Below are positions 2,161 to 19,986 of a stretch of 20,036 nt of DNA, in pieces. Origin of the DNA: a virus; IMG/VR virus record IMGVR_UViG_3300008448_000886, positions 1-20,036 of that record, one strand, 5' to 3'. The notes under the pieces were generated by a model that had not been told where the DNA came from, did no database searches, and worked only from the letters and a program-made list of their open reading frames with translations. The position numbers were made by a program, and so were the translations under genes. Position 1 is the first letter of the stretch. Every line of letters begins with the position of its first letter.

Positions 2161-3558
2161 ATGGGAATTTTAGATATTTTCAGTAAGAAAAAACAAACCC
2201 AAAACGAAGCCAATACTGTTCTTGGTCAGTTGCAACTTGGTAATCAAGTTATTTATTCGACCGCGAATAGACAGCCTACCGCATCTCAACTTTTATATGT
2301 AACCACCTCAAGCAATACTGTTGCCGGAAGGCAGGTTGATGTATCCCTGCTAACTCGCAATAGCACGATTATGTCGTGCGTCGGACTTAAAGCAAGAGCG
2401 TTATCTCAACTCCCCGTTTCAATTATGTATAAAGTTGACGATGGCACTTTTGTTGATGCACTAAAAAGCGACAAAGTAGGCGCAAGAGATAAGAACAAAG
2501 CAAAACAAGTATTAAATCTTCTGCAAGAACCAAACAATTTTCAGAGCAAATATGAGTTCTGGTATCAATGGTCTATGTGGCAAGACATTGCAGGTGAATC
2601 GTTTACTCTCTGGTGGCGTAAAGACCAAAAAGATTCAACTCAAACCCCGATTGAAATGTATAACCTTGATTCGACTTTAATCTCGGTTATTCTGACTGCT
2701 ACTCGCTATCCTTCGTATCGCTTGTCTACTCCCTCATACGGGTTTAGCAAAGATGAACCGCTTGCCGCACATCAAGTCATGCACATTAAAGAAGCTGCGT
2801 GGCAAGGTTCCAGCGGTTTCAATAAAGGCATCTTAGCAACAGAACTTGTTGCATTAGACCAAGACATTGACCTTTACGCCAATTTTGTAATGCAGAATGG
2901 TGCGAAGCCTTCGGGTATTTTTGTTACTGAGCAAGTAATTCCAGATGCCAAATACAAAGAAATCGCGGCCAGATTAAAAGAAGCATGGTCTGCAATGACT
3001 GGTTCTAGGGCAGTTGACCAAAGTAAAGCTGGTCAGGGTATGTTGCTTGATCAGGGCATGAAATATATGCCGGTAGATATGTTGACTATTCAGGATGCCG
3101 ATGTAGCAAACCTGAAGATGCAAACCATGAAACGTATCTGCGGCCTTTTTGGTGTTTCTCCTGCGATGATTGGTATTGCTGATGGTAAATACAACAATAC
3201 CCAAACAATGCTTGATGAATTCTACAAAACTACCATGTACCCTATGGTTATTAGTATTGAGCAAAAGTTAAAGCAGCATTTGTTAAAGGGATTTCCTAAC
3301 TTATGCGTAAGATTTGATACCAAAGAATTCTTGAAGGGCGCTCCGCTTGACCAGATGAATTTGGTTACTGCTGGCGTTAAATCCGGGATTATGACTCCCA
3401 ATGAAGCGCGTGAATATTTGAATATTGCCAAAATTGAAGGCGCTGACGAATTGGTTTCTATAGATAAATCTGCTGAACCAATACCCGGTAGTGGGTCGCA
3501 AGATACTGGTGGTGGTGGCGGTAATCAGACTCGCCGCATGAATATTGGAACGACATGA
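2161..3558 (+). CDS. Portal protein, HK97 family
   Basis: Dodecameric head vertex protein through which DNA enters and leaves. The 465-aa length and composition fit the HK97-type Phage_portal family. Supporting segments are an N-terminal SLLTRNSTIMSCVGLKARAL region (about residues 61-80) followed by LPVSIMYK, a central SGIFVTEQ segment, and the MKRICGLFGVSPAMIG motif, which is characteristic of these portals. The last ~25 residues are low in complexity and glycine-rich (GGGGGN), so are probably a disordered tail. Position between terL and the prohead protease is the canonical HK97 order. The stop overlaps the next small ORF by ATGA. Confidence 0.93.
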   Translation: MGILDIFSKKKQTQNEANTVLGQLQLGNQVIYSTANRQPTASQLLYVTTSSNTVAGRQVDVSLLTRNSTIMSCVGLKARALSQLPVSIMYKVDDGTFVDALKSDKVGARDKNKAKQVLNLLQEPNNFQSKYEFWYQWSMWQDIAGESFTLWWRKDQKDSTQTPIEMYNLDSTLISVILTATRYPSYRLSTPSYGFSKDEPLAAHQVMHIKEAAWQGSSGFNKGILATELVALDQDIDLYANFVMQNGAKPSGIFVTEQVIPDAKYKEIAARLKEAWSAMTGSRAVDQSKAGQGMLLDQGMKYMPVDMLTIQDADVANLKMQTMKRICGLFGVSPAMIGIADGKYNNTQTMLDEFYKTTMYPMVISIEQKLKQHLLKGFPNLCVRFDTKEFLKGAPLDQMNLVTAGVKSGIMTPNEAREYLNIAKIEGADELVSIDKSAEPIPGSGSQDTGGGGGNQTRRMNIGTT

Positions 3559-3764
3559 ATCTGTTAAGAAAAGCGTTGTCTATACTTACTTCACAGATTC
3601 GTCAATCTGATGTTAAACTCGGCGCAAGTAGAAAACCCCACAAGATAACAGACGATAATCAATCGCTTAAAAATGGGGTAATCAATGAAAAATCTACTTC
3701 TGGTTTGCGAAGCAAAAGTAAATCTGGAGCAAAGCGCGGAAGAAAGCCAAAGTCCGTCGGGTAA
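3555..3764 (+). CDS. Small basic protein of unknown function between portal and protease
   Basis: A 69-aa ORF whose ATG overlaps the portal stop (ATGA), which favours translation by coupling. Its last 80 bases overlap the protease gene in another frame, which is unusual in an otherwise minimal-overlap operon. The product is rich in Lys, Arg and Ser. Its C-terminus (KRGRKPKS, about residues 60-67) loosely recalls DNA-binding AT-hook sequences but lacks a strict GRP core. I do not recognise a family. It also bridges what would otherwise be a 126-base gap between portal and protease. It could be a real small gene or merely a leader ORF that delivers ribosomes to the protease start. Confidence 0.45.
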   Translation: MNLLRKALSILTSQIRQSDVKLGASRKPHKITDDNQSLKNGVINEKSTSGLRSKSKSGAKRGRKPKSVG

Positions 3765-4452
3765 GATTGAAGCTAGAGTTACGACTTGGGGTGCGCGTGA
3801 AGGCGCAGACGGTCGTAAATTCTATTACAAGCCAGAGGGTTTTCAATCTTGGGTAAATGAGTTTTCGGAAGCTGGAAAACCTTTACCAATGTTTCTGAAT
3901 CATAACGACATGGGTATGCCTGTCGGTGAATGGACAGAATTCAATTTTGACAATGAAGGAATGACTGCAAACGGTCGTATTTATACGAATACCGTAGGCG
4001 GTTCAGACCTTTATACGGTTCTCAAAGAATCTCCTAATTTGTTTGGTGGCGTTTCTGTCGGTGCATATGCCGAAGAAGCCATGATGGTTAATGCTGATGG
4101 CGAACCAGACCAATCTGACGAAGCCTACTTCCAGATTACCAAAGGTGGTATTCGTGAAGTATCGGTTGTCATGTATCCAAACAATCCTAATGCTGAAATC
4201 CACAAATTAGAATTTGCTGGATTAACAGAGCGAAAAATCGAGAAAATCCTGCGGGATGCCGGGTTTTCACGTAAAGATGCGGCCACCGCGTCTAGTTCTC
4301 TCAGGGAATACATCAAGCGGGATGCTGATGTAGAACTTGAGAATTCCCCAACTCAGCGGGATGCTGATGCGGTGGTACACGAAGCCGAAGAAATTTTACG
4401 TGCTTTACAAGTGCGTGAACTTTCTAAGGAAATTTCCAAACGCATTAAATAA
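3685..4452 (+). CDS. Prohead maturation protease, HK97 U35 family
   Basis: Serine protease (255 aa) that cleaves the capsid scaffolding domain during head maturation. The catalytic His is most likely H73 in FLNHND and the nucleophile S124 in GGVSVGAY. Their spacing of about 50 residues matches HK97 prohead protease. A further conserved block REVSVVMYPNNPNAEI spans about 157-172. After the protease domain comes a helical extension beginning LTERKIEKILRDAGFSR (about 180-196), a tail common in this family, then charged sequence with a repeated RDAD (212-215 and 225-228). The start at 3685 follows GGGG about 10 bases upstream. It directly precedes the first capsid gene, whose N-terminal domain is its expected substrate. 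Confidence 0.9.
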   Translation: MKNLLLVCEAKVNLEQSAEESQSPSGKIEARVTTWGAREGADGRKFYYKPEGFQSWVNEFSEAGKPLPMFLNHNDMGMPVGEWTEFNFDNEGMTANGRIYTNTVGGSDLYTVLKESPNLFGGVSVGAYAEEAMMVNADGEPDQSDEAYFQITKGGIREVSVVMYPNNPNAEIHKLEFAGLTERKIEKILRDAGFSRKDAATASSSLREYIKRDADVELENSPTQRDADAVVHEAEEILRALQVRELSKEISKRIK

Positions 4453-4461
4453 AGGAATATC

Positions 4462-5787
4462 ATGAAAGAAGTCATTGAAAAGCTGGATGCCATTGAAGCG
4501 GCTAATGTCGCCAAAGTGGAAGAAATCAAGGGCGAAGTTGCTAAGTCGCTGGAAGAAGTAAAAACCCAAGTAACTGAGCAAGTTGCTGCGCTGGAAGCCA
4601 AAGTCGCCGCGATTCAAGCGCCTTCGGTTATCAAAGTCGCAAAAAGTATCAAAGAAGATGTAAACCGGTCGGTAAAAGAACAACTGCGCGATTTCTACAA
4701 ATCCAGCCGCACGATGGAAAAAGAAATCAAGATGTTTGCAGATGAAGGTCAGTATGATGCCTACATCAAAGAGGCGGCAGACCTGAATGGCTCTGGCGCT
4801 GGCATTGGCGGTCGTACCGCTTATGACCCGATGTTTGTTGCTCTGCGTCTTGCTAACCCGATGCGTGGTGTTTCGCGTAATGTATCGACCGAAGGCGCAA
4901 CGTATCAGTTCCGCGCAAAAACCGGCAATACCGGCCCTGCGTGGGGTTACACCATTCAAAACAACGGCGCTGCAACGACTGTAGCCACGAACATCTGGCA
5001 ACTGACGCTGCAAGACCTGAACGTGCAATTCCCAATTCGTACCGCTGCGCTGGATGACATTGACGGTTTGGAAAGCAATGTTGTTTCGGACATGCTGGTT
5101 GAATTTTCGGAAGTTGAAGCATTGTCGATGATTAAGAACGACGACCAAGATGCAGGTGCGGCTTATGGCGGCACTAACGGTCTGCGCGGCCTGAATCAAT
5201 ACGGCGGCAACAATGCTTCTTATGCTGGCGGCACGATTTCTGTCGCGGATTACGGCACTAGCGGTACGGGTTCTTCGTCTGGTCTGCATGACATTGCAAC
5301 GTATGACCAAATCACTACCAATGGTGATACTGCCGTAAACAATGTCAGCTACAAAGACTTGATTAACTTTATCCACGACCTGCCGCAGCAGTATTGGACT
5401 CCGGGTTGTAAGTTTGTAATTAACCCGCTGATGCTGGCTGGTATCCGTGGTCTGGTTGACGATAACGGCACTCCGGTTTTTGAACGTATGTCGCCGCTGG
5501 AATACCCCGGCATTGTTGGTCGCTTGCTTGGCTTCGATGTTGTCGTGAATAAATATCTCGACAATCCGACTTCGCCGGGTACTGACGATGGCGTTTCTCT
5601 GTATCCGATGTATTTCGGTGATTGGAGCCGTGGTCATACCATCGTTGACCGTCTGAACATGGTTCTGCGTCGCTACGACCAGACCTTGCCGGGTTTCATC
5701 ACGTTCTACGGTGAAAAGCGTCTTTGCACCAGCGTAGTTGACCCGTTCAGCATCATTCGGTATCGCTCTACCGCAACCGGAGCGTAA
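4462..5787 (+). CDS. Major capsid protein 1, HK97 fold with N-terminal delta-like domain
   Basis: Principal head subunit (441 aa). Residues 1 to about 100 are a Lys/Glu/Ala-rich helical, coiled-coil-like segment equivalent to the HK97 delta scaffolding domain, which the upstream protease would remove. The HK97-fold core starts near residue 104 with a Gly-rich GSGAGIGGR, then LRLANPMRGVSR, PIRTAALDDIDG, a GLRGLN loop (about residue 240), and a C-terminal PGFITFYGEKR (about 412-422). A good ribosome-binding site (AAAGGA, 4451-4456) precedes the ATG. Codon use differs from most neighbours: Leu is mostly CTG and third positions are richer in G/C, as expected for a very highly expressed gene. A terminator-like hairpin follows the stop, and a paralogue follows that. 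Confidence 0.93.
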   Translation: MKEVIEKLDAIEAANVAKVEEIKGEVAKSLEEVKTQVTEQVAALEAKVAAIQAPSVIKVAKSIKEDVNRSVKEQLRDFYKSSRTMEKEIKMFADEGQYDAYIKEAADLNGSGAGIGGRTAYDPMFVALRLANPMRGVSRNVSTEGATYQFRAKTGNTGPAWGYTIQNNGAATTVATNIWQLTLQDLNVQFPIRTAALDDIDGLESNVVSDMLVEFSEVEALSMIKNDDQDAGAAYGGTNGLRGLNQYGGNNASYAGGTISVADYGTSGTGSSSGLHDIATYDQITTNGDTAVNNVSYKDLINFIHDLPQQYWTPGCKFVINPLMLAGIRGLVDDNGTPVFERMSPLEYPGIVGRLLGFDVVVNKYLDNPTSPGTDDGVSLYPMYFGDWSRGHTIVDRLNMVLRRYDQTLPGFITFYGEKRLCTSVVDPFSIIRYRSTATGA

Positions 5788-5790
5788 TAA

Positions 5791-5827
5791 AGGTGGGGGA
5801 GCAAGAAAACTTGTTTCCCCTCTTTTG
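5791..5827 (+). terminator. Terminator-like hairpin between the two capsid genes
   Basis: Bases 5795-5805 and 5810-5820 form an 11-bp stem (two G-T wobbles) closed by an AAAA loop. The strong lower stem is GGGG/CCCC. It is followed by TCTTTTG, a short imperfect T-tract. The structure fits a weak or partial Rho-independent terminator, or an mRNA-stabilising 3' hairpin for the first capsid message. It would be expected to lower expression of capsid gene 2 relative to gene 1. The stem is visible in the sequence; the function is inferred. Confidence 0.6.
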
Positions 5828-5850
5828 AATAAAACGAGATTGGATAATCT

Positions 5851-6882
5851 ATGAGCCTGATTCTTGATGCAGTTAAAAAGACACTCAAAGAAGGAGAGGC
5901 TACCGTTAATCTTGCGGAAGCATCGACTTTAACCGCTTCGGGTTCAGGTGTCGGCGGTCGAGTTATTTATGATGATGCGTTCGCTGCTTTGCGCTACGCT
6001 AACCCTATTCGCATGATGAGCCGTGTTATTACTACTATCGGCTCTGATGAAGCATTTGTTGTAAAAACTGGTAACGCTACCGTAATCCAATCGGGTTCTA
6101 CTAATCCGTGGGGATATGGCATAAAGAATAACGTTGGAAACTACGACGCTTCGTTTTGGCAAATTTCGCTGAAATGTATTAACGCAGTAGTTCCTATTCG
6201 GACTGCTGTTATGTCCGATATTGACGGTTTTGAAGAAACGATTGTTGAAGATATTGCTCTGGAATTTGCTCAACAAGAAGGTTTGAGCATGGTTCTAAAC
6301 AATGATTTATCAAGTGGAACCGCTACTCCGCAAACAGGTAGTACCGATGGTCTGCGCGGATTGAATTTCTACGCAGGTTCTACCAGTGCCGCATCGTTTG
6401 GCACTAGCGGTTCGGCTGATACCAATGGTCGGCATACTATGTTGCAAGTAGCGCAAGCTAGTGCGGCTTCGGTTGCGTATAACGACATTATGAATCTTGC
6501 ATCTGCACTACCTTCTCAGTATTGGAACAATCCTTCTACTGCTTGGATGATGCACCCGACTACAATTAAGAATTTGCGCGAACTGCGCGACGACCAACAA
6601 CTGCCGTTGTTCCTTGATATTGGCGAAGTTGACGGTTATGCAGTTGGGCATATTGCTGGTTTCCCCGTAATTCCTAATCCGTACATGGACATTGCTGGAA
6701 GCGGTAAATTCCCCGTTTATCTTGCTGCTTGGAATAGGTTTGTAACGATTGCGGATAACGAAGAAATGAAGCTGCAAATGTTGGAACAAACTGCGCCCGG
6801 TTTTGTAACCTTGTATGCCGAAAAGCGCACTTGCTCTACCATTCGGGATGTATTCGCGGGAGTTCGGCTCTACGGTGCTTAA
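5851..6882 (+). CDS. Major capsid protein 2, HK97-fold paralogue lacking the delta domain
   Basis: Second capsid-like protein (343 aa), colinear with the core of the preceding gene. Matching blocks are GSGVGGR (31-37) to GSGAGIGGR, LRYANPIRMMSR to LRLANPMRGVSR, PIRTAVMSDIDG to PIRTAALDDIDG, the identical GLRGLN, LPSQYW to LPQQYW, and PGFVTLYAEKR to PGFITFYGEKR. Only about 22 residues precede the shared core, so the scaffolding domain is absent. The ribosome-binding site is weak (GGAT near 5842) and lies behind a terminator-like hairpin. Codon use is less biased than in gene 1. It is probably a minor head protein, for example a pentamer/vertex subunit as T4 gp24 is to gp23, but a size-determining or decoy role cannot be excluded. 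The capsid fold is near certain; the role is inference. Confidence 0.88.
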   Translation: MSLILDAVKKTLKEGEATVNLAEASTLTASGSGVGGRVIYDDAFAALRYANPIRMMSRVITTIGSDEAFVVKTGNATVIQSGSTNPWGYGIKNNVGNYDASFWQISLKCINAVVPIRTAVMSDIDGFEETIVEDIALEFAQQEGLSMVLNNDLSSGTATPQTGSTDGLRGLNFYAGSTSAASFGTSGSADTNGRHTMLQVAQASAASVAYNDIMNLASALPSQYWNNPSTAWMMHPTTIKNLRELRDDQQLPLFLDIGEVDGYAVGHIAGFPVIPNPYMDIAGSGKFPVYLAAWNRFVTIADNEEMKLQMLEQTAPGFVTLYAEKRTCSTIRDVFAGVRLYGA

Positions 6883-6894
6883 TAGGGGCGGCAA

Positions 6895-7551
6895 ATGTCC
6901 ATTGAAAATCTTACGCTTGCTCCATTTTTTGCTGTAAATAGAAACCCGTTTAATTACGCAAAAATTGAACAGGTTAGCCGTGATTTAGTAACTGAATGGT
7001 TAAGTCTTGAGCAAATTACTCAACAGTTAAATCTGTTCGATGATGAAAGTCAAGATTCGTATTTAAGCGGTTTAGAGTTAGCGACCCGTTTTGCGATTGA
7101 GGATTTTCTTGGTATTTCGATGTTCTCAACGCAATATCGGGTTTATTACGGCAATCCGGGATTCTTCAGTAACGCAATTTATTTAGACTTGCCGGAAGTA
7201 TCTATCGGCAATTCTGGCGTTATTCTAAATGAAGTCAAATGTTATATTGGCGACCCTAATCCCGCGCCAACAACTATTAGCAATACTCAATACTATTACG
7301 ACCCCACTGGTAATCGTGTAGTTGTTAAAAGTGTTCCTAATAGCATTAGCCAAGTAATTGCTAATCCTTTGCAAGTTTTATATACGGTTCCGGCTAACTT
7401 CATTGCTCAGTATCCGGTGATTCAGCAAGCAGGATTGTTGCTTTTAACGCACCTTTATAACAATCGCTCAGAAACGACTGCCGGAAAGTTACACGACATT
7501 CCGTTTGGCGTTAAAGCATTGCTGCGGCCATACAAAACTTTGGTTATGTAA
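6895..7551 (+). CDS. Head-tail connector protein, HK97 gp6-like
   Basis: Likely adaptor ring attached below the portal (218 aa). The N-terminal third contains the pattern LSLEQITQQLNLFDDESQD (about 37-55) followed by a helix LATRFAIEDFLG, typical of gp6-like connectors, which begin with a helix binding the portal. The C-terminal helix VIQQAGLLLLTHLYNNR (about 173-189) and a following IPFGVKALLRPYK (about 201-213) are also family hallmarks. The middle, rich in beta strands, makes it longer than the ~110-aa HK97 gp6 and closer to SPP1 gp15-like or fused forms. It follows the capsid genes after 12 bases and overlaps the next gene by one base (TAATG). Confidence 0.78.
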   Translation: MSIENLTLAPFFAVNRNPFNYAKIEQVSRDLVTEWLSLEQITQQLNLFDDESQDSYLSGLELATRFAIEDFLGISMFSTQYRVYYGNPGFFSNAIYLDLPEVSIGNSGVILNEVKCYIGDPNPAPTTISNTQYYYDPTGNRVVVKSVPNSISQVIANPLQVLYTVPANFIAQYPVIQQAGLLLLTHLYNNRSETTAGKLHDIPFGVKALLRPYKTLVM

Positions 7552-8342: not shown

Positions 8343-8864
8343 ATGGCACTTATTAATAAGGTCTTGCCCGGTTATGTTGCGACTCTCTGGATGCAAGATG
8401 ATGCGGTTCCGACTCCCTTGACCGACGCGCAACTGTCAACTTGGGCTGCTCAAGTTGAAACTATTGTCGGCACTTCCGCTGGCGGCACTGGTACTGCTGG
8501 TATTAATGTTCCGGTAGAGGCTATTCCCTCTTTTGGTGCGGACGATGCTTCTGCGGCTTTCTCGGTTGCTGGCGCTCGTACCGGCGCAAAAATCACTACG
8601 CAAAACCAAGTAACTTCGCTGACGATTACTTCGGCATGGAATCCGGCTGATACCGCGCAACTGTTAATCCGCGACGACGGTTACAGCGGCACGATTATTC
8701 GCACCTTTGTTATCGCGGTTTACGATGGCACTGACACTGTTGCGTATGCCTTCAATGCTCGTGTAGGCGGTCTGCAATGGGATATGTCGCCTTCTGCCGA
8801 AGGTAAGTTTATTTTCACGATTCACCCGGTTGGCGGCAATAGCTACGGCTGGTCTAACGACTAA
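8343..8864 (+). CDS. Major tail (tube) protein
   Basis: Probable tail tube subunit (173 aa). It lies just after the tail-completion gene and just before the chaperone pair, the invariable siphovirus position. The sequence is beta-rich with Gly/Ala/Thr-rich loops and ends GKFIFTIHPVGGNSYGWSND. There is a good ribosome-binding site (AAGGA, about 8330-8334), and codon use is G/C-shifted (CTG, GGC, ACC), like the first capsid gene and unlike adjacent genes, indicating high expression. I do not see a diagnostic motif, so the call rests on context and composition. Confidence 0.8.
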   Translation: MALINKVLPGYVATLWMQDDAVPTPLTDAQLSTWAAQVETIVGTSAGGTGTAGINVPVEAIPSFGADDASAAFSVAGARTGAKITTQNQVTSLTITSAWNPADTAQLLIRDDGYSGTIIRTFVIAVYDGTDTVAYAFNARVGGLQWDMSPSAEGKFIFTIHPVGGNSYGWSND

Positions 8865-13727: not shown

Positions 13728-14317
13728 ATGTAATTGCGCCAGTTGAAAATACTAACAACATTCGTTACGCACAATTTGTGCGTGTAACGACTGCTGACGA
13801 AGTATTTAGGTTTGCTACTACTCCCGCACCTATAACGGTTCCTTCAGTTGACGCGCAACCGTTTGACGCGGTTGGTGTATTAATGAAGGTTGGCGATGCT
13901 CAAAAAGACATTAAATCTACAGCAAACGAAACTGCGTTTACTTTAATCGGAATTGATACCGCAATGCTTGGTTGGGTTTTGAGTCTAAATGTTAAAGGCT
14001 CAAAGATTGAAGCATGGAATGGATTTTTTAACACGGATGGAGAATTAATTACTGGCGGCGGTAGTGGTGGTCTTTATAAGTTCTTTACTGGTTATGTTTC
14101 CTCGTTTTCGATTTCCGAGGAATGGCTAGAAGAAATGAGACAGTTTGTTGGAACCATTACTGTAACCGCATCTTCTATTCAGTTAATTCTGCAAAACAGA
14201 ACCGCAGGACGATATACAAATAATAATTCTTGGCAATTCTTTAATTCCGGCGATACCAGCATGAACCGTGTTGCGTTTGTTTCGACCATAAATTATTACT
14301 TTGGCAAAACGCAATGA
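13724..14317 (+). CDS. Probable tail-tip/hub protein, minor tail protein
   Basis: A 197-aa protein between the putative distal tail protein and the GNAT gene. It contains a Gly-rich turn (GGGSGGLYKFFTGYVSS, about 110-126) followed by an alternating strand region and a terminal GDTSMNRVAFVSTINYYFGK (about 176-195). That ending recalls DUF2163/baseplate-hub-like minor tail proteins, which have a final 'D-x-F-x-x-V' strand and a Trp/Tyr-Gly-Lys end. The similarity is weak. Both ends overlap neighbours by ATGA, so it is tightly coupled to the tip operon. The hub role is inferred from order. Confidence 0.5.
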   Translation: MNVIAPVENTNNIRYAQFVRVTTADEVFRFATTPAPITVPSVDAQPFDAVGVLMKVGDAQKDIKSTANETAFTLIGIDTAMLGWVLSLNVKGSKIEAWNGFFNTDGELITGGGSGGLYKFFTGYVSSFSISEEWLEEMRQFVGTITVTASSIQLILQNRTAGRYTNNNSWQFFNSGDTSMNRVAFVSTINYYFGKTQ

Positions 14318-14748
14318 TTTATCGTGCAACAAAATATCACAAACCAATCATTATTGATTTAATGACGCAGTTTGCAAATGAAAGTCCGATAGATTATTGC
14401 CATGCGTATTCTGATATGGAATACGGAAATAAGTTACTTGATGAAATATTTGCTGGCCGTGGTGCAATATTTCTAGCAGATGATTACGGAATACTTATGT
14501 CTATTATCCTTCCCTGTATTTGGTCGGATAAAATCTTTGGATTGCATGAATTAGCTTGGTATGTAAAACCAGAAAATCGTGGTGGAATGGCTGGATATAA
14601 ATTATTAAAAGAATATAACGAATACGGAGAGTTATTAAAAACTACCGGCAGGATTAAGTATTACACCATAAGCCGATTGGTTACTAGCCCCGATGTGGAC
14701 TACTCCAGATTCGGTTATCGCAAACAAGACGAAATCTGGATTCAATAA
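14314..14748 (+). CDS. GNAT-family N-acetyltransferase
   Basis: A 144-aa protein with the GNAT fold pattern. It has an N-terminal strand and helix (IYRATKYHKPIIIDLM), a central pair of strands AIFLADDYGILMSII (about 51-65), then strand 4 and the acetyl-CoA pyrophosphate loop HELAWYVKPENRGGMAGYKLL (79-98 region), and a final YSRFGYRKQDEIWI (130-143) typical of the GNAT C-terminus. The loop departs from the strict Q/R-x-x-G-x-G/A form, so activity is probable rather than sure. The substrate is unknown. It overlaps both neighbours (ATGA at the start, TAATG at the end) within the tail-tip operon, suggesting action on a virion protein or a host protein late in infection. Confidence 0.72.
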   Translation: MIYRATKYHKPIIIDLMTQFANESPIDYCHAYSDMEYGNKLLDEIFAGRGAIFLADDYGILMSIILPCIWSDKIFGLHELAWYVKPENRGGMAGYKLLKEYNEYGELLKTTGRIKYYTISRLVTSPDVDYSRFGYRKQDEIWIQ

Positions 14749-17700
14749 TGAAATACATTGTTGCATTTTTATTGTTGTTTGGTTTTGCGGCCCCTGCTTT
14801 TGCTGTTGGTATGACTATTGCAATTGCGGCGGGTTTAACTGGTTTTGCTGCTGCTGCTACTGCTTTTGCAATAAATATGGTTGCATCTGCAATTATATCT
14901 AAAGCATTTTTTAGCCCTAATCAGGGTGCACAAGACTTTGCAGGTCAAGCAAAAAACCCCGGTAATCGTCAGCAAATTCCGCCAGCAACAGATAACAAAT
15001 TACCAGTGGTCTATGGTTCTGCTTGGGTAGGCGGCACAATCATTGATTTAAGTATCACTGAAGATAACCAAAATCTTTACTATGTATTGGCTTTGTCTGA
15101 AGTTACTGGAAACGGCGCAGACACAATTACTTTCGGTGATATTTATTACGGCGGTAAAAAAGTAGTATTTAACGGCACAAACTTATATAGTGTGGATTCT
15201 TTGCTTGATGAATCTACCGGAGAAAGTCAGCCTATAAACGGTAACATTAAGTTCTACCTTTATAGCAATGGCATAAATTCCCCGCAGAATTCTAGTTTGT
15301 CCGCAACTCAAGTAATGCAATCTAGCGGTCTTGTTTGGCAATGGGATACATCGCAACAAATGACTCATTGCGCTTTTGCAATTCTGCATTTAACTTACAA
15401 CCAAGACCTTAATATTCAAGGTATCGAACAAACCAAGTTTCAGATTACAAACTCCCGTTCTAAGCCGGGAGATTGTTTTAATGATTATTTAACCAATACG
15501 GTTTATGGCGCGGCCATTCCCACGAATCAAATAGATACGGCTAGTCTTACCGCGCTTAATACTTATTGCGATGGTTCATTTACATACGAGCCTTATGCCG
15601 GTGGTTCTGCTACGCAAACCCGTTTTCGTTTTGATGGTGTAATCGACACTAACAGAACGATAATGCAAAACCTTCAAGATATGGCATCGTGTTGTGATTG
15701 CCTCTTGAAATACAATGAAATATTGGGAACTTGGGGTGTTGTTGTTCAATCGCCTACTTACACGGTAGCAATGAACATTAACGATAGCAATATGGTTTCT
15801 GCTATCAGTATCACGCCGATTGATATTGCTGGCTCTTACAATGTCATTGAATGTAAATTCCCTGACGAAAACAATCAGGACTCATTTAATTCCTCGACGT
15901 TTGACCTTGCGGAAATTGCGCCGGAACTGTTGTTCCAAAATGAACCAGTAAACAAACAATCGGTTTCCTTGCCGTTAGTTAATAACGACGTTCGCGCACA
16001 ATACCTTGCTAACCGGATGCTTAAATCTGCAAGGGAAGATTTACAAGTTCAATGCACAATTAACTATGTCGGTCTGCAATTAGAATCTGGTGATATTGTT
16101 TCTGTAACCAGTGTGAATTACGGATGGGTTGCCAAGTTATTTAGAATCAATAAAGTTGTGCAGACGTTTGAGGATAGCGGACAAGTCTTAGCCAAGCTGA
16201 CACTTTCTGAATATAACGCCGCAATTTATGACGATGTTTCCGTAACTCAGTTTGCACCTGTTCCCAATAGCGGAATTGGAAGCCCTACACTTTTCGGAAA
16301 TATTCCGGTTCCGGTAGTTGCGGCCCAATACCCGACGATTACTAATCCTACGTTTGTAGTTCAAATTACAAGTAGTTCGGTAGGTATTATTCAATACGCG
16401 GAACTTTGGTATTCGGCATTTTCTAGTCCGACGCAAGAGCAACTTATCTTTGCGGGAACTACCGAGATTCAACCAAACGGAAACCCGTATCCTGTTTCTA
16501 CCGCAATGCCGAGTATTAGTATTTCGGACATTCCTAGTGGTAATTGGTATTTCTTTTCTCGCATGGTTAATAGTATTGCGACTAGTCCTTACAGTTCCGC
16601 AAGTTCTGTATTCCAATGGCGACCAAGCACTTTCCAGTATTCCGAGCGTTATTTAGTTGTTGCTTACGCTGACAGCATAACCGGAACTAATTTTGATTTA
16701 GACCCTAGAAATCACTCTTACTACGGACTTCTAAATCAAGACAGCGTAACCCCAAGTATTACGGCATCTGACTATACTTGGTATTTAGCAGACCCTAATT
16801 TTGGGACTGTTTATTACCTGTGCTATTCCAATCGAACCGGAAGGAAGTTTAGTTTTGATACTGGATTAGCTGGATATGCTGCTGGTACCGGTGCTTTTGT
16901 TCCAAGTCAAACCAATTTGTTTGACCCAACTGTATGGGCTGCTTTAGCTGACGGAATAAATTTTATTGATTTAGACAGAGCAACAGGACAATTACTTTCT
17001 ACCGGAACAACATCTGTTGGAACAGGTGAAATCTCTGTAAACAACACACCTGATGGTAGAGTTATTGCTTCACTTCAGCAATTCTTGGATTTCGGTGGCG
17101 CTTATACACAAACAAGTTCAGTTGCAAACCTTACTATTGATATTTATGGTCGAGTGGTAGGTTTAGAAGAACCGGACGAGTTTTATTTAACCAAACAATC
17201 TTTTACAGCAACTTCAGGACAAACGGTATTTTCTGTTACTAGGGCATCTGGTTATATCTCAGGTCAATGCTTTGTTCTTCAAAACGGATGCTTATTAGAT
17301 ACATCTGAATACACTGATACCGGAGGCGCTACCGGAACTGTTACGTTATCTGTTGGCGCTACAACGGGTGATATTGTTACGATTGTTTCATTTAAATCTG
17401 TTTCTAATTTATCCATCATTACAACTGGCGCTTCTGGAACCGGCTCAGTAGCAACACTAACATTCACTTCAAAACTAATAATTCCTTTTACCGTTGGTCA
17501 AAGCATTACTATTACAGGTCTTGTTCCTTCTGGATATAACGGAACTTACACAGTAACAGCTTGCACTAATAGCTCTGTTTCTTATGCTAATACCACAACT
17601 GGAAGTCAAACAACTTTTGGAACCATAACTTTAACAAGCCCAATTTACGCTTCGTTTTCTAGGAATACTGCGACCCTTACTGATGCAAGCGAATATACCG

Positions 17701-18089
17701 CATCAGGATTTACATTAGTAAGCGGCTTTGAATTGTTATTCCTGAATGGAACGGTAGTAAATGAGCAAGACTACAATATTTCAGACCAGACTATTACTGA
17801 CTTCCCAAATGTTACATCTGGAAAATTAACTGTTATCCAATGGAGTCCTAATAACTTAACAGTTCCAAATGGAAACCCTGTAAATATTATTACAAATACA
17901 GTTATAGGTCAGACATTGTATTCTTTCAATTTTGACGTTGATGCTTTCAATTTATACAACAACGGATTGATGTTATTGCAGGGAACGGATTACACTACCG
18001 CAACTGGTACTTATACGTTATCTAATACACCGACTACTATTACCAATTTACTTTTACAACAAACCTTCGCAAGAACGGGGGCAGTATGA
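14748..18089 (+). CDS. Central tail-tip / host-specificity protein, lambda gpJ-like
   Basis: Large tail-tip protein (1113 aa). Residues 1-19 look like a Sec signal peptide (basic K2, hydrophobic core, AxA-type end APAFA), followed by another hydrophobic segment (about 22-53). The gpJ-like region starts near PPATDNKLPVVYGSAWVGG (79-95) and includes a Phage-tail_3-like stretch (about 301-335). It also includes ARE...LESGDIVSVTSVNYGW (428-460) and LSEYNAAIYD (486-495), all characteristic of tip hubs. A fibronectin-III-like module spans about 525-635. The C-terminus is fibre-like, with three related beta units (about 812-884, 964-1035, 1043-1110) and an inserted Ig-like domain (about 890-962). 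An alternative start at M22 (14811) lacks a ribosome-binding site. Confidence 0.9.
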   Translation: MKYIVAFLLLFGFAAPAFAVGMTIAIAAGLTGFAAAATAFAINMVASAIISKAFFSPNQGAQDFAGQAKNPGNRQQIPPATDNKLPVVYGSAWVGGTIIDLSITEDNQNLYYVLALSEVTGNGADTITFGDIYYGGKKVVFNGTNLYSVDSLLDESTGESQPINGNIKFYLYSNGINSPQNSSLSATQVMQSSGLVWQWDTSQQMTHCAFAILHLTYNQDLNIQGIEQTKFQITNSRSKPGDCFNDYLTNTVYGAAIPTNQIDTASLTALNTYCDGSFTYEPYAGGSATQTRFRFDGVIDTNRTIMQNLQDMASCCDCLLKYNEILGTWGVVVQSPTYTVAMNINDSNMVSAISITPIDIAGSYNVIECKFPDENNQDSFNSSTFDLAEIAPELLFQNEPVNKQSVSLPLVNNDVRAQYLANRMLKSAREDLQVQCTINYVGLQLESGDIVSVTSVNYGWVAKLFRINKVVQTFEDSGQVLAKLTLSEYNAAIYDDVSVTQFAPVPNSGIGSPTLFGNIPVPVVAAQYPTITNPTFVVQITSSSVGIIQYAELWYSAFSSPTQEQLIFAGTTEIQPNGNPYPVSTAMPSISISDIPSGNWYFFSRMVNSIATSPYSSASSVFQWRPSTFQYSERYLVVAYADSITGTNFDLDPRNHSYYGLLNQDSVTPSITASDYTWYLADPNFGTVYYLCYSNRTGRKFSFDTGLAGYAAGTGAFVPSQTNLFDPTVWAALADGINFIDLDRATGQLLSTGTTSVGTGEISVNNTPDGRVIASLQQFLDFGGAYTQTSSVANLTIDIYGRVVGLEEPDEFYLTKQSFTATSGQTVFSVTRASGYISGQCFVLQNGCLLDTSEYTDTGGATGTVTLSVGATTGDIVTIVSFKSVSNLSIITTGASGTGSVATLTFTSKLIIPFTVGQSITITGLVPSGYNGTYTVTACTNSSVSYANTTTGSQTTFGTITLTSPIYASFSRNTATLTDASEYTASGFTLVSGFELLFLNGTVVNEQDYNISDQTITDFPNVTSGKLTVIQWSPNNLTVPNGNPVNIITNTVIGQTLYSFNFDVDAFNLYNNGLMLLQGTDYTTATGTYTLSNTPTTITNLLLQQTFARTGAV
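17181..18086 (+). repeat. Three diverged fibre-repeat units in the C-terminus of the tail-tip protein
   Basis: Protein-level repeats at roughly 17181-17396, 17640-17855 and 17877-18077. Each has the order: a hydrophobic strand, an aromatic-x-x-NG or LNG turn (LQNGCLL, FLNGTVV, LYNNGLML), a 'Y-T/N' strand (SEYTDT, QDYNIS, TDYTTA) and a final strand. An unrelated Ig-like module (about 17418-17634) separates units 1 and 2. DNA similarity between units is low, so they are old duplications or exchange-prone receptor-binding modules. Confidence 0.5.
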
Positions 18090-19512: not shown

Positions 19513-19986
19513 ATGGCGATTTTATATTGGGTTCATTCCCATGAACACAATGATATTTTCACGCAAGGTTATGTTGGCGTTACGCCAAACTTTGCCAAGC
19601 GTATGCGTGAACATAAACATAAATTTAAAAGTATTTGGAACAAAATTGTTATGGAAACAATTATTGTTGCCGAATCTTCGTATTGTTACGCAATAGAAAA
19701 TAAACTTCGTCCATTTCGTAATATTGGTTGGAATAAAGCCCCCGGTGGCTTTAGAAACAATACAATGATTGGCAAAGAAAATCCAAATTTTAATAAAAAA
19801 GGTGAACAAGCCTCTAATTTTAAAGGATTGTTTGTAACACCTAAAGGAACTTTTGTTCGTGCGGAAGATGCGGCAAAAGAGCATAATTGTGCAATTAGCA
19901 CGATTCACCGACGTTGTTGCGGAAGAATAATTGGCAAAAGAAAATTGCCGCCGCAAAATGGTTACTCATTTACGCAGAAAGTGTAG
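19513..19986 (+). CDS. GIY-YIG homing endonuclease with NUMOD-type DNA-binding tail
   Basis: Free-standing DNA endonuclease (157 aa). The N-terminal nuclease has LYWVH (4-8) and GYVG (19-22) in place of the GIY and YIG elements, a conserved R30 in KRMREH, the catalytic glutamate E62 in AIENKLRP, and N74 in WNKAPGG. The C-terminal part contains a NUMOD3-like GKENPNFNKKGEQASNFKG (87-105) and a NUMOD1/IENR1-like helix-turn-helix GTFVRAEDAAKEHNCAISTIHRRCCG (112-137), which would position it on DNA. All expected catalytic residues are present, so it is probably active. It is separated from the tail operon by its own leader, typical of SegA-type mobile endonuclease genes that invade phages. Confidence 0.88.
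   Translation: MAILYWVHSHEHNDIFTQGYVGVTPNFAKRMREHKHKFKSIWNKIVMETIIVAESSYCYAIENKLRPFRNIGWNKAPGGFRNNTMIGKENPNFNKKGEQASNFKGLFVTPKGTFVRAEDAAKEHNCAISTIHRRCCGRIIGKRKLPPQNGYSFTQKV

Follow-up and report, generated by a model that had tools for sequence, protein, structure and literature searches.

Tandem HK97-family capsid genes in a group of small freshwater phages, with a proposed minor, likely vertex, role for the second protein

The stretch of DNA analysed here (the window) spans 20,036 bases and comes from the IMG/VR virus record IMGVR_UViG_3300008448_000886. Two related capsid genes follow one another within its head module. The features of this region are as follows.

470-2131, + strand: terminase large subunit (TerL), from Pfam- and PHROG-type profile evidence
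2161-3558, + strand: portal protein (PF04860)
3685-4452, + strand: prohead protease (Peptidase_S78, PF04586), presumed to cleave the capsid proteins
4462-5787, + strand: gene 1, major capsid protein of the HK97 family (PF05065), 441 aa
4462-4770, + strand: residues 1-103 of gene 1, mostly helical and charged, ahead of the common core in alignments
5788-5830, + strand: terminator-like hairpin directly past the gene 1 stop codon
5840-5844, + strand: weak Shine-Dalgarno sequence of gene 2, TTGGA (-3.1 kcal/mol, compared with AAAGGA at -5.6 kcal/mol for gene 1)
5851-6882, + strand: gene 2, second HK97-family capsid protein, proposed minor (pentamer/vertex) subunit, 343 aa
5851-5916, + strand: residues 1-22 of gene 2, the short N-terminal stretch (..ILDAVKKTLKEGEATVNL..), conserved throughout the gene 2 family
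6895-7551, + strand: head-tail connector/adaptor, immediately 3' of gene 2

The terminase, portal, protease, capsid and connector genes succeed one another in the order of a head module, and both capsid reading frames lie where the preliminary description of this DNA had placed them. Gene 2 of the window has a 100% match, at identical coordinates, in a viral contig of 35,997 bases (L002). Further downstream, a 173-aa protein (8343-8864) has the highest G+C content among the tabulated genes and a strong preference for C-ending codons; it has no Pfam or PHROG match and is probably the major tail protein. A 144-aa protein of the tail module (14314-14748), whose gene directly precedes that of the long tail protein (14748-18089), looks by eye like a GNAT-type acetyltransferase and gave no match in a Pfam search at E 0.01, while the reading frame at 19513-19986 resembles a GIY-YIG endonuclease (PF01541, E 0.001, just under the cut-off) and is a probable homing endonuclease.

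The resemblance between the two capsid proteins is far beyond chance. Residues 89-433 of gene 1 align with residues 8-339 of gene 2 at 37% identity (BLASTP, E=1e-73), and a profile-profile comparison joins the two over 314 columns with a probability of 100 (E=4.7e-74). Both match PF05065 (Phage_capsid) over most of the domain and well above the curated cut-off of 24.2 bits (gene 1: 92.3 bits, E 4.7e-26; gene 2: 74.5 bits, E 1.2e-20), both match PHROG 10 'major head protein', and at 57 positions the same residue occurs in at least 90% of both the gene 1 and the gene 2 families. The five motifs quoted in the preliminary description as common to the pair (LRxANPxRxxSR, PIRTAxxxDIDG, GLRGLN, LPxQYW and PGFxTxYxEKR) are all present in both proteins, in agreement with its view of them as tandem HK97-family paralogs. 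Family membership predicts an HK97 fold for both, and for gene 2, where a failure to predict this fold would have told against the earlier proposal, the sequence profiles through which it was checked favour the fold.

The two proteins differ chiefly ahead of the core. The common core starts at E104 in gene 1 and at E23 in gene 2, so that gene 1 has 81 more N-terminal residues; the extension noted earlier is real, while the figure of about 100 extra residues corresponds to the whole length before the core and not to the excess. Gene 1 residues 1-103, which show weak matches to helical families, are missing from gene 2 except for the last ~20, and the region linking the N-terminus to the core (..KEAS-LTGSG-G-GGR..) is alike in the two families. 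From its position and the prohead protease gene next door, the gene 1 extension is likely to be a delta (scaffold)-like region. Within the core, gene 2 has a longer E-loop region and a shorter A-domain-like region than gene 1. That gene 2 lacks a scaffolding domain, as first described, holds for the delta-like region, but two lineages bear an unrelated N-terminal domain of 103 aa (MPKPTDAMKAEARRGLDWRKEFGRGGTEVGVARARD...) at the site of residues 1-22, which matches PHROG 2859 (unknown function). The first lineage includes L055, L066, L075, L080, L117, L129 and L142 and the second L100, L127 and L144; two of these genes lie as follows.

L055, 5686-7008: gene 2 with the 103-aa domain
L066, 4273-5601: gene 2 with the 103-aa domain

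In Roseobacter phage CRP-811 and Synechococcus phage S-CBS3 the PHROG 2859 domain is likewise N-terminal, on long capsid proteins, and it also occurs in a Pontimonas prohead protease and in Vibrio phage proteins of unknown function, a distribution suggestive of a mobile head-associated domain. Homology of this domain to the gene 1 delta region was considered and rejected: its position corresponds, but it is a different domain. On the tree its distribution needs three changes, two of them forced by well-supported branches, and it was probably gained twice and lost once.

The preliminary description had supposed that gene 2 would escape the protease, but this does not follow from a short N-terminus, because both minor paralogs compared here are processed: the prohead protease removes 10 residues from T4 gp24 (PMC9958956), and SaPIbov5 Ccm is found in cleaved form (PMC8569155).

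The pair recurs throughout the relatives, which form a large and almost unstudied group of freshwater phages with two related shell-protein genes side by side. Queried with gene 2 alone, the viral contigs yielded 147 relatives, of which 80 were taken; with an alignment of gene 1 as the query there were at least 564, of which 80 were kept. Gene 1 followed by gene 2, adjoining, intact and in the same order, is present at 157 viral loci and, with contigs from metagenome-assembled genomes (MAGs), at 161, a count that includes some contigs fetched twice and corresponds to 107 sequence-distinct pairs. All five viral loci with one gene only end or begin at that point: in three from the gene 1 query the contig ends 1-27 bases past gene 1, and the others begin right at the gene 2 start. 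The bacterial genome collection, also searched for close single-copy relatives, added five contigs (bacterial or archaeal MAGs), four with both genes and one cut off. Because the gene 1 search was unconditioned on gene 2, the pairing is not a selection effect. One contig (L158, IMGVR_UViG_3300022748_000017) is 75,987 bases long, about twice the usual 38 kb, and is possibly a duplicated assembly or an unusual relative.

Purifying selection acts on both genes: the median dN/dS is ~0.07 between close pairs and 0.14 between pairs at a moderate distance. Gene 2 diverges somewhat faster, at a mean pairwise distance of 0.40 versus 0.32 for gene 1, and the distances of the two genes correlate moderately (r=0.51). 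The stretches DLNVQFPIRTAALDDIDGLE and VDRLNMVLRRYDQT are under far stronger constraint in gene 1 than in gene 2, which would fit a gene 1 protein placed in several quasi-equivalent environments and a gene 2 protein placed in fewer. Gene 2 also appears to move independently of gene 1: between L118 and L125, gene 1 differs by 5% and gene 2 by 38%, a contrast that suggests replacement of the gene 2 allele by recombination, and L018 groups with different partners in the two genes. The faster divergence and signs of recombination might be taken to mean that gene 2 is a non-essential decoy or passenger duplicate without a structural role, a decoy having been among the roles first proposed for it. 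However, a search of the combined set for loci that had lost gene 2 found none, no pseudogene occurs among the 161 pairs, and the dN/dS values hold for close and moderately distant pairs alike. We regard a decoy or passenger as highly improbable, and it and a decaying gene, which the preliminary description had named as a point that would count against its proposal, are effectively excluded.

The junction between the genes carries a conserved structure. In the window, a G+C-rich stem-loop (5795-5820) with outer A/T pairs is followed by TCTTTT and is the top-scoring terminator-like site of the whole stretch. Among 97 non-redundant loci, 95 have a hairpin with at least five G-C pairs in the stem, although the 5' stems comprise 90 distinct sequences, and the 50 bases 3' of gene 1 fold with a mean energy of -19.4 kcal/mol (z -3.1), compared with z -0.4 for control folds after gene 2 and inside gene 1. 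These per-locus folds are stronger evidence for the hairpin than the compensatory changes in four of five consensus pairs, which come from an imperfect MAFFT alignment of 44 loci. At one locus (L132) the usual hairpin spacer is replaced by a 365-base insertion with an HNH-endonuclease-like reading frame (CKHCGKPG...CELCGFKP...DHKDGDRKNNLESNLQTLCANCH).

Two further features distinguish the expression signals of the genes. The mean Shine-Dalgarno energy is -5.6 kcal/mol for gene 1 and -3.6 kcal/mol for gene 2, values that include some automatically assigned and perhaps wrong starts. The fraction of C-ending codons is 0.52 in gene 1 and 0.39 in gene 2 (0.40 in both portal and terminase) and is higher in gene 1 than in gene 2 at 100 of 107 loci. 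An intermediate codon bias of gene 2, seen in the window alone, was discarded, since across loci gene 2 lies at the level of the portal and terminase. The conserved hairpin, the weaker gene 2 ribosome-binding site and the lack of a high-expression codon bias in gene 2 are new here. Because hairpin, codon bias and Shine-Dalgarno strength point the same way, gene 1 is probably made in excess over gene 2, with a correspondingly lower level of the gene 2 protein.

The hairpin may act as an attenuator, passing only part of the transcripts into gene 2. A possible though less favoured function, in place of attenuation, is to stabilise the 3' end of the gene 1 message or to direct its processing: unlike the conserved stem, the T-tract is often broken up (mostly 3-6 T per 8 bases), so termination may be weak, but many copies resemble ordinary intrinsic terminators. 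The roles of stabiliser and terminator are moreover compatible, and either would raise gene 1 over gene 2.

We consider it moderately probable that gene 2 encodes a minor capsid subunit, likely at the pentamers or vertices, and gene 1 the major capsid protein of the hexamers. The argument for a minor shell subunit is that gene 2 is always present, is under purifying selection, is probably made in smaller amounts and has no delta region, while its most likely placement at pentamers follows from precedent and dosage. On this proposal, gene 1 would supply the major capsid protein, which would bear a scaffold region of the delta type at its N-terminus, and an ancient tandem duplicate that lost this region would have become gene 2, a dedicated minor subunit of the same shell. 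Gene 2 dosage, limited by the hairpin past gene 1, would be lowered further by a weak ribosome-binding site and unbiased codons. Without a delta region the gene 2 protein would need gene 1 to assemble, and it would be recruited by touching gene 1 subunits, the delta regions of which would organise the procapsid; its presence in the virion and co-assembly with gene 1 are accordingly expected features of the model. Gene 2 would most likely occupy the 11 non-portal pentamers and gene 1 the hexamers. A genome of ~38 kb makes a T=7-like shell likely, which would hold ~360 copies of gene 1 and 55 of gene 2; the relation of genome length to T-number is described in PMC8814770.

A minor role such as vertices, one of several roles offered in the preliminary description, is thus the leading reading, with universal conservation, purifying selection and three indicators of lower dosage in its favour. 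Two observations weigh against it. The codon bias of gene 2 equals that of portal and terminase, slightly low for a protein of 55 copies, and the distance correlation together with the apparent gene 2 recombination argues against very tight co-adaptation. Nor does sequence by itself directly tell a pentamer from other minor positions, and a mosaic capsid, with gene 2 in hexamers or particular quasi-equivalent positions and not (only) at vertices, would suit two proteins of one family with an intact, strongly conserved core; the longer E-loop and shorter A-domain-like region of gene 2 would fit any altered capsomer contact. We think this arrangement unlikely, as T4 gp24 and Ccm, both characterised shell paralogs, sit at pentamers only and a lower dosage suits a small, fixed number of sites.

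The low codon bias, which resembles that of 12-copy and non-structural genes, could also mean that gene 2 is mainly an assembly regulator, a selector of capsid size or shape or a portal-proximal subunit, present briefly or in very few copies, and Ccm shows that a paralog of a major capsid protein can redirect head size (PMC8569155). Ccm, however, does so as a pentamer protein, which makes this explanation overlap with a vertex role, and gene 2 belongs to every member of the group and not to a parasite; we judge a regulator to be quite unlikely. Returning to the vertex proposal, the exchange of gene 2 alleles admits a more speculative and on balance rather unlikely extension, in which gene 2 would be the exchangeable vertex module of a fixed two-protein capsid, behind its own attenuator and swapped among phages with an almost unchanged hexamer protein, and the head-associated domain, fused to it at least twice, would lie under the vertices.

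The origin of the pair was traced, along the line suggested in the preliminary description, with a rooted tree of 23 gene 1, 23 gene 2 and 5 outgroup proteins. The outgroups come from five more distant phages, in each of which one capsid gene fills the same slot of the TerL-portal-protease-MCP-connector order; a search of the phage collection for close single-copy relatives with which to date the duplication gave only such outgroups, at ~22-25% identity. Gene 2 forms one clade (100/100) on a long stem of 1.34 changes per column, and gene 1 as its sister clade is not rejected (p-AU 0.20). The simplest reading is that one old duplication preceded the radiation of the group, because gene 2 is one clade and a gene 1 clade is compatible with the data, with the root uncertain owing to long outgroup branches (2.4). 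The gene 2 of L145 has a very long branch (0.92 changes per column) beside much shorter-branched relatives.

T4 offers a well-known dedicated pentamer protein, and SaPIbov5 another that serves a parasite. If the proposed role is true, the present group would provide a third, independent case, in small (~38 kb) phages, and a protein that currently has only a hypothetical annotation would gain a function. With a cultured representative and natural sequence pairs in the hundreds, one could study how the work of one capsid protein is shared out between hexamers and pentamers and whether a pentamer copy can manage without a scaffold domain; the conserved hairpin would then serve gene 2 as a simple means of setting its dosage.

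A search of the literature for tandem capsid genes in such phages, outside which most subscription papers lay, found nothing relevant; one match for 'two capsid genes' (PMC6199706) proved to be a passing annotation only. Homologous tandem pairs, sought in related phages as the preliminary description had advised, include one in a named phage, Methylophilaceae phage P19250A (KX815270), whose terminase, alone among those of the phage collection, exceeds 60% identity to that of the window. Its gene 1 (65% identical) is annotated as 'gene transfer agent capsid protein' and its gene 2 (50% identical, with an 8-residue insert near the N-terminus) as 'hypothetical protein'; no mention of this second capsid protein was found in the literature searched, outside which the original phage description possibly lies. 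The best-matching solved structures for both families are those of the Rhodobacter capsulatus gene transfer agent (GTA) capsid (PDB 6tb9/6tba; profile E 3.9e-9 for gene 1 and 2.5e-4 for gene 2), which belongs to another capsid family and is matched with confidence only over the C-terminal ~130 residues.

A close analogy is with T4, where gp23 and gp24 are HK97-fold paralogs derived by gene duplication in one phage genome; gp24, with ~20% identity to gp23, makes up the vertices, and its N-terminal propeptide is the shorter, at 10 residues compared with 65 (PMC9958956). In the present pair the minor protein has the shorter N-terminus (core from E23 versus E104). T4 differs in its ~171 kb genome, prolate head and separate scaffold core, whereas the phages described here have genomes of ~36-39 kb and a pair that is 37% identical, with a conserved hairpin between the genes and a vertex position proposed by analogy. 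The phage matches to gene 2 include no T4-type record and the PDB matches no T4 structure, and since the duplication is independent, gene 2 is not placed in the gp24 family. Ccm of SaPIbov5, like gene 2, is an HK97-type capsid homolog with a different N-arm from its partner, the phage phi12 CP, to which it is 24% identical; it occupies pentamers only and is unable to form shells alone even with its delta domain (PMC8569155). While the gene for Ccm lies on a satellite that is a parasite of the phage, and Ccm carries a delta domain of 87 residues, gene 2 has no such domain and is a fixed phage gene, part of the head operon in all phage contigs inspected.
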